A stretch of 64,000 nucleotides of DNA from NCBI RefSeq assembly GCF_000482505.1, contig NZ_AXVL01000019.1, positions 1-64,000 of the forward strand. The letters run 5' to 3'. The notes under the pieces are model-generated. The model made no database searches and had not been told where the DNA came from. It was given only the letters and a program-made list of their open reading frames with translations. Positions within the stretch are counted from its first letter, which is position 1. The number at the start of each line of letters is the position of its first letter. A program made the translations under genes and the position numbers. Positions 5,370 through 57,953 of the stretch are shown here, in pieces. The stretch comes from Leptotrichia trevisanii DSM 22070. Lineage in GTDB: Bacteria; Fusobacteriota; Fusobacteriia; Fusobacteriales; Leptotrichiaceae.

Positions 5370-5710
5370 TATACTAAACCCCATTTAAATAACGAATTTA
5401 TTACAAATTTTTCTAATAAAGGATATAAACCTAATATTTTCAAGTAATTTAAGATATAATTTTTATTTTTTAAACAGAGTTTAGTATAATTAATCCGTCG
5501 GAGCATTTTTCTGTGCTGGCAAAACTGTTTGAGCATAGCGAGTCTTTTGTCAGTGCAGAAAAATGTCGTAGACTAGCCATAGGTTGTAGGATTTGTGGCA
5601 ATGAGCAATCCTACGAATATAAAAAATAAAAAAGTTGAATGATTATGAATTAGCTATTGAACAATTCTATTATAAAAATTTATTCTCATTTTTAAACGGG
5701 GTTTAGTATA
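5370..5710. mobile_element. MITE-like region with TATACTAAACCCC inverted ends
   Basis: The gene-free stretch 5345-5845 holds a non-coding element. Its left end TATACTAAACCCCATTTAAA (5370-5389) is matched 19 of 20 by the reverse complement of the right end at 5691-5710. A third, inward copy of the end (5469-5489, in right-end orientation, with more mismatches) closes a smaller unit of about 120 bp, 5370-5489, almost the same size as the related element at 17607-17728. The remainder holds a two-hairpin unit (5504-5616) of a different repeat family. It may be one element that took in another, or two elements side by side. It has no reading frame. Confidence 0.65.
5504..5616 (+). repeat. single two-hairpin unit (TGTTTGAGC...AGCGAGT family)
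   Basis: Hairpin A pairs CATTTTTCTG (5504-5513) with CAGAAAAATG (5556-5565) and, inside it, CTGGCAAAA with TTTTGTCAG, leaving a loop with TGTTTGAGCATAGCGAGT. Hairpin B pairs GTAGGATT (5586-5593) with AATCCTAC (5607-5614), with a loop TGTGGCAATGAGC. The same two loops, on quite different stems, occur twice in each of the large elements at 23521-23984 and 57518-57953. This is a solo half-copy. Confidence 0.7.
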
Positions 5711-23520: not shown

Positions 23521-23984
23521 GATTAGTAACTATTTTTTTATAATTTATATATTTTTTCTTTTTATTAAAGCAAAGGGGAACAATCGCCATCCCCTTTGCA
23601 ATCCCCGCTCGTCTAAGCATTTTTTGAAAACAAAAATTAAACTTGCTTCGCTCAAACAGTAATTTTTATTTCCAAAAAATCACGACATTTCTGATTCAAT
23701 TATAATAATTATTTTACTTATTATTTTCATGAATATAATAAAAAATTTTTTATAAATTTCCGAGATTTTAATTTTTCAGTAAAAGACAACATGTTTGAGC
23801 TTTTCTGTTATATTTAAATTAAATAACAACCTTATGAAATTAAAATAACTTTTGTTAAAAGCGAGTTTTGTCTTTTGCTGTAAAATTGAAATTCGAGAAG
23901 CGGGAGTGCAGAGGTATGGCGTTTGATACCTCTGCTTTAAAAAAATTAATATAAATAAAAATAAGAAAAAAACTATTATTAATC
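23521..23984. mobile_element. structured REPIN/MITE-like element, copy 1
   Basis: This fills the gene-free stretch between speA and speD. Imperfect inverted ends GATTAGTAACTATTTTTTT (left) and GATTAATAATAGTTTTTTT (reverse complement of the right end) flank four hairpins. H1: 23570-23579 with 23590-23599, loop ACAATCGCCA. H2: AAAAATTA 23632-23639 with TAATTTTT 23660-23667. H3: 23777-23789 with 23868-23880. H4: 23908-23917 with 23926-23935, loop GGCGTTTG. H1/H2 are the reverse-complement counterparts of H4/H3. Copy 2 at 57518-57953 keeps every stem with different bases. No coding frame. Confidence 0.8.
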
Positions 23985-57380: not shown

Positions 57381-57517
57381 CGTTATTTTACCTCTGTTCT
57401 CTTTATTTTTTTATCTTTAAATTTTATCATAGTTTATTTTCTTTTTCAATTTTTTAAAAAATTAATAAAAATTATACCCTACTTATTTCTTATTAAATTT
57501 ATTGAAAATAAATTTTT

Positions 57518-57953
57518 GTTAATAAACATTTTTTCTATATTTTATATTTTTTTCTTTTTCTATACGTAAAGGGGATCAATCGCCATCCCCTTTACAATCC
57601 CCGCTCGTCTAAGCATTTTTTGAAAACAAAATCGAAACTCGCTACGTAAAACTTCGCTCAAACAATCGATTTTATTTCCAAAAAATCACGACAATTTTAA
57701 TTTAGTTATAACAACTATTCTAATTAAAAGATTTTCGAGCAAAATTTCGTTAGAAGAAAAATAGCTGTTTGAGCTTTTGAAATATTTTTTAATTATACAT
57801 ATTTATTTAGATATAAAATAATTTTTGTTCAAAAGCGAGTTCTATTTTTCTTTTATAAGAAAGTTTTGCGGTAAGCGGGGTTGTAAGGGCATGGCGTCTG
57901 ATGCCCTTACGTTAGAAAAGATTAAAATTATAAAAGAAAAAACTATTATTAAT
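57518..57953. mobile_element. structured REPIN/MITE-like element, copy 2
   Basis: It fills the 606-base gene-free stretch upstream of mutS. H1: GTAAAGGGGA (57566-57575) with TCCCCTTTAC (57586-57595), loop TCAATCGCCA. H2: AAAATCGA (57628-57635) with TCGATTTT (57666-57673). H3: AGAAGAAAAATAG (57752-57764) with CTATTTTTCTTTT (57842-57854). H4: GTAAGGGCAT (57883-57892) with ATGCCCTTAC (57901-57910), loop GGCGTCTG. Ends TTAATAAACATTTTTTCT and ATTAATAATAGTTTTTTCT (reverse complement) are imperfect inverted repeats. No coding frame. See copy 1 at 23521-23984. Confidence 0.8.

Follow-up and report, generated by a model that had tools for sequence, protein, structure and literature searches.

A probable promoter-targeting MITE with ISLre2-type ends and folding hairpin units in Leptotrichia

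The window analysed here, a stretch of 64,000 nucleotides from Leptotrichia trevisanii DSM 22070, carries two copies of a non-coding element with four hairpins (H1 to H4), which raises the question of what this element is, how it came to lie where it does and whether its hairpins are maintained as structures. A first-pass annotation of this DNA had placed copy 1 between speA and speD, and the genes on either side of copy 1 indeed encode an Orn/Lys/Arg decarboxylase and an S-adenosylmethionine decarboxylase. All four stem pairings that it quoted, and the loops that it gave as constant, are present in both copies, and the imperfect inverted ends were recovered as 61-nt terminal arms, 77% complementary, flanking copy 1. 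Its description of the element as two head-to-head units also held, as the covariance model R1, built from 22 distinct left-type units, matches both halves of copy 1 and of copy 2. The features of the window are the following:

23521..23984, no strand: copy 1 core, a pair of structured units pointing away from each other, with AT-rich inverted ends; the true element limits are located outside these coordinates and have eroded at this copy
23559..23687, minus strand: copy 1 left unit (R1, 155 bits; the unit resembles the training set of the model)
23766..23946, plus strand: copy 1 right unit, hairpins H3 and H4 (R1, 44 bits)
57518..57953, no strand: copy 2 core, with the mutS-side element boundary at about 57466-57473
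57555..57693, minus strand: copy 2 left unit (R1, 146 bits; the unit is included in the training set)
57737..57922, plus strand: copy 2 right unit (R1, 49 bits)
5496..5626, plus strand: a third, single family unit of the GACGGAGC...GTCGTAGACTAGCC subtype (R1, 72 bits, E 1e-13)
57421..57449, minus strand: putative sigma-A promoter of mutS (-35 TTGAAA at 57449-57444, spacer 17, -10 TAAAAT at 57426-57421; read from the sequence)

The left unit of copy 1 consists of a P2 stem with a capped distal hairpin followed by a P1 hairpin (H2 and H1, respectively). A role of H1 or H4 as intrinsic terminator was ruled out, since the strand following P1 is A-rich and not T-rich. The real ends of copy 1 were inferred from recent copies in a congener, G008, and the mutS-side boundary of copy 2 was set from where orthologous sites diverge. 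No recognisable target duplication or terminal repeat was found at the window copies, and the search for exact empty sites of both copies returned only distant or rearranged empty arrangements.

Regarding the distribution of the element, the first-pass annotation had considered that it might be limited to the window copies or belong to an already named family, and had proposed a covariance-model search. This search detected units in all 13 genomes of the genus examined, with 2-127 units per genome, and 69 BLAST pieces matching the element were found in the window's own genome, a recurrence well above what chance would give. No family match was obtained in Rfam at gathering or relaxed thresholds, the relaxed matches being at chance level only, and plasmid and phage records searched with the whole element gave no match. 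The literature consulted describes no ISLre2-derived MITE in Leptotrichia, and the supplement of PMC11109978 may list one without a name. The richest genome was that of G008, with about 127 mostly near-alike, recent units. An alignment of 20 of its copies showed that conservation continues about 60-100 bp past H1 and H4; positions 23521-23984, which had been taken as the extent of copy 1, thus cover the core and not the whole element. The G008 element carries non-coding units and no transposase gene, is 428-507 bp long (mostly 430-480 bp) and terminates in GACAGAGTAAAATATTTAGGGG at one side and, read inward, GATGGTTTAAAAATTTTAGGGGC at the other. In the window's own genome, the copy L022 retains the GACAGAGTAAAAT end. 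Judged from their sequence, the element ends belong to a known insertion-sequence type.

It should be noted that other sequences with a related end, GATAGTGTAAAAATTTTAGGGG, are found in G008 (L128-L132, L136), some of which, such as L128, may represent a shorter element of roughly 170 bp, and that in a Leptotrichia subfamily (L012, L016, L069, L070, L080, L090) conserved flanks (GGATACTTAA..) reach well past the usual ends.

The first-pass annotation had suggested looking for target-site duplications and for a transposase gene with matching ends, and both were found within the genus: 10-bp duplications and ISLre2-type ends in G008, and ISLbu1-type transposases in congeners. Exact 10-bp direct repeats, a DDE-type signature, were present at the junctions of 29 of the 40 G008 copies examined (9 bp in two, 11 bp in one and none in eight); at two own-genome copies (L002, L012) no target duplication was seen by eye. 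The G008 end GACAGAGTAAAATATTTAGGGG resembles the ISLbu1-type end GACAGAGTAAAAAATATAGGGGCA, which flanks PF06782 genes (UPF0236, ISLre2 family) in 1.5-kb elements of congeners, and the GACAGAGTAAAAT..TAGGGG end is common to G008 copies and L022. These congener ends agree with the 24-bp perfect repeats reported for ISLbu1 of L. buccalis (PMC3942029). Ends of this type were located at L193, L194, L198, L201 and L204, and 10-bp duplications also at the ISLbu1-type loci L194, L204 and L208. The two ends of the element are unequal, the GATGGTTTAAAAATTTTAGGGGC end deviating from the ISLbu1 repeat.

PF06782 is present in five congeners (G001, G007, G010, G011, G012); neither G008 nor the window's own genome (G000) gave a match at E 1e-3, which is the principal gap in this line of evidence and implies that the transposase was either lost or undetected in genomes rich in copies. 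Loss after mobilisation would account for the missing gene, and the co-occurrence of a partner transposase in one genome is expected of a MITE without being part of its definition. No structured unit was found at the ISLbu1-type partner loci, which indicates that the hairpins are unnecessary for this transposase at its own ends. Two other partners were rejected: transposases of the IS4/IS5 type (PF01609) are absent from G008, the genome richest in copies, and IS256 (PF00872), with 15 copies in G008, has GAGAGTGTCC ends and 8-bp duplications.

To describe the sites of insertion, sigma-A-like promoters were scored around the G008 copies, eight other distances scored in the same way serving as controls. 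With at least 9 of 12 matches, a promoter whose -35 box lies 16-18 bp outside an element end was found for 34 of 40 copies (0-4 of 40 in the controls), and with at least 8 of 12 matches for 38 of 40, on one or both sides (8-15 of 40 in the controls). When distances from 0 to 40 were scanned, the mean promoter score at both ends was highest at a distance of 16-18 bp. This spacing recurs in many ISLbu1-type elements, for example with a 12/12 promoter at 16 in L199. It agrees with the report that the ISLre2 family inserts 15-17 bp ahead of the -35 box and that ISLbu1 of L. buccalis does so in both orientations (PMC3942029). In the window, copy 2 precedes the -35 box of the putative mutS promoter (TTGAAA-N17-TAAAAT) by about 17-24 bp, and relatives without the element at this site have a similar promoter; no clear promoter was found beside copy 1. 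At the copy-2 site of G007 (L300), an apparent TnpB-type gene with an IS605-like end, recognised by eye, replaces the element.

Taken together, these results make it likely that the element is a Leptotrichia MITE with folding units, mobilised in trans by an ISLbu1-type transposase of the ISLre2 family and targeted to promoters. The ends, the duplication and the target are directly shown in G008. The window copies are old and their ends eroded; that they arose in the same way is inferred from the shared units, the intact end of L022 and the position of copy 2. The transposase, a Mutator-like DDE enzyme (Pfam UPF0236), would recognise the terminal inverted repeats and insert the element in either orientation, with a 10-bp target duplication, 16-18 bp upstream of a sigma-A -35 box. 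The body would consist of one or two structured units facing outward, one strand of which would fold and be transcribed as a small structured RNA, and units would be exchanged between copies. Our best guess is that the RNA or the hairpin could bind a factor or have a shielding function, so that insertions next to promoters are tolerated.

Are the hairpins maintained as structures? In the structure alignment, 97.6% of the cells are paired and 17 of the 34 pairs are altered on both sides. Four of five measures exceeded all of 500 shuffles, a control that preserves column make-up and not relatedness, and slid structures were only 46-63% paired. The claim of the first-pass annotation that the stems vary yet keep pairing was thus sustained against shuffled and slid controls, but some of the differences between copies 1 and 2 on which it relied represent whole-unit replacement. 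Indeed, at the copy-1 site, where the neighbouring genes are unchanged, the right unit is another one in L. hongkongensis (locus L213) and oral taxon 879, and other unit combinations occupy the copy-2 site in three congeners (G009, G011, G012). Such swaps at the same sites between species indicate that the stem differences between copies are in part module replacement.

Rearrangements within units were also observed. In L017 (1501-1700), the distal P2 hairpin keeps its place but has the opposite orientation to the remainder of the unit, and in L018, L024, L015, L025 and L026 extra hairpin modules are nested inside unit stems (GTAGT..GTTTAGACTAC plus TTCCCAAAT..ATTTGGGAA; TTTCGCC..GCGAAA).

The paired changes could accordingly be mutational and not selected, template switching correcting one arm of an imperfect palindrome to match the other and recombination swapping whole hairpins. 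Unit replacement between species at both window sites, the inverted hairpin of L017 and the insertions inside the stems of L018, L024 and L025 speak for this explanation, which we nevertheless regard as somewhat unlikely. Arm correction predicts no strand bias, whereas on the U strand (the minus strand for left units) P2 wobbles in Leptotrichia, counted on related sequences, are G-T in 19 cases and A-C in one over 11 clusters (sign 10:0, p 0.002; 24:0 at 95% clustering); no such bias was seen in other genera (6:6). Moreover, the internal-loop and cap sequences remain constant while the stems vary. Since the G-T mispairs lie largely on one strand, the U strand is most likely the one that folds.

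A -10-like hexamer is located exactly 18 nt before the left-type unit in 20 of 41 upstream sequence clusters, which suggests transcription as a small structured RNA; -35 support for this box is weak (9 of 41 clusters), and the box may be kept by descent. The wobble bias, the kept pairing and the -10-like box favour a folded product of the U strand, most simply an RNA. The units carried by the MITE could instead be structures of single-stranded DNA that serve, for example, in protein binding or replication. Folding of one DNA strand would give a strand bias too, and the GNA triloop of the cap takes any base at N while its closing pair covaries R-Y across genera. We consider this alternative quite unlikely, as the -10-like box just before left-type units points to transcription and as DDE transposition involves, to our knowledge, no obligatory single-stranded intermediate.

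Beyond the genus, weak model matches reduce to the cap CTGTYTGARCRNAGYGAGTTT on unrelated, well-paired stems. This cap, which lies inside the window units, was detected in 34 of the 98 Fusobacteriota genomes, representing 10 of the 29 genera, with up to about 40 per genome (loci L091-L107 and L306-L335); the reversed pattern gave one match in all. The closing pair alternates between A-T and G-C across genera, with any base at the N of the GNA triloop. The cap also occurs in four IMG/VR contigs (L336-L339).

A REP/REPIN-like origin, in which the hairpins are moved as single-stranded DNA by a Y1 (HUH, RAYT or IS200/IS605) transposase, would fit the inverted hairpin pairs, the constant loops, the dozens of copies per genome, the favoured strand and a C(GNA)G cap, which is an exceptionally stable DNA mini-hairpin (GCGNAGC), but it is highly improbable and, for Leptotrichia, largely refuted by the 10-bp duplications and ISLre2-type ends, by the lack of association between the cap and Y1 genes (PF01797) across the 98 genomes (18/34 vs 27/64, Fisher p 0.40), by seven genomes, the window's own included, that have at least 10 caps and no Y1 gene, and by the absence of a cap within about 1.5 kb of any of 30 Y1 gene loci. 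The parallel drawn by the first-pass annotation with REPINs and MITEs moved by HUH or DDE transposases therefore holds for a DDE-mobilised MITE, given the duplications and ends, and not for REPINs and HUH enzymes, the cap showing no link to Y1 genes.

In Ilyobacter polytropus, a second hairpin, GTTACTTTTC..GAAAAGTAAC, comes after the capped stem, and another hairpin of this kind is found at the opposite end of many copies; Caballeronia and Pseudoalteromonas plasmids carry second hairpins resembling these. It should be noted that the composite repeats of I. polytropus (L341-L360, L363) have inverted ends, TAAATTACTGAATTTATCC, unlike those of Leptotrichia. A further reading, tentative and in our opinion unlikely, is that the two-hairpin unit constitutes a mobile structured RNA or DNA in its own right, found across phyla, with one conserved task and riding different transposon bodies: it would have ISLre2-type ends in Leptotrichia, different inverted ends in Ilyobacter and related-looking P1 hairpins in Proteobacteria. 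Were this true, a selfish structured nucleic acid would have been captured repeatedly by promoter-seeking or other transposons. The cap common to ten Fusobacteriota genera raises the question of whether it marks one old mobile structure.

Within Leptotrichia, a gene-less element present at a fixed distance upstream of sigma-A promoters in tens to more than 100 copies per genome can rewire upstream regions genome-wide, and the family provides clean natural data on promoter choice by ISLre2-type transposases. A conserved, strand-biased structure in a passenger transposon further raises the question of whether such MITEs carry working small RNAs.

Bacterial MITEs such as Correia elements and RUP are short, non-coding sequences with terminal inverted repeats, target duplications and many copies, moved in trans; the element shares these features and would likewise move in trans. 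We know of no description, for MITEs of the Correia or RUP type, of promoter targeting and a body of one or two covarying structured units. With the RAYT-mobilised REP, REPIN and BIME sequences (PMC3733652, PMC6006769), the element shares palindromic units, often in inverted pairs, and many intergenic copies, but its units are much longer, a target duplication is present and no association with Y1 genes was seen; PMC3733652 makes no mention of Fusobacteria. The mobile or repeat candidates of PMC11109978, a survey that included Leptotrichia buccalis, are likewise covarying multi-copy structured motifs, and the one that is described in the text of that survey, MRSC-65-2, consists of one stem bearing UYCCGG and does not correspond to the element. 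The closest likeness is to ISLbu1 and the ISLre2 family (p-MULT 3, with TnGBS; PMC3942029), which share with the element the terminal repeat GACAGAGTAAAA..TAGGGG, the 10-bp duplication, measured on both, and an insertion point, used in both orientations, that precedes a sigma-A -35 box by 15-18 bp. By contrast with these insertion sequences, which lack structured units, the element contains such units, carries no gene, measures mostly 430-480 bp and has ends that differ from each other.
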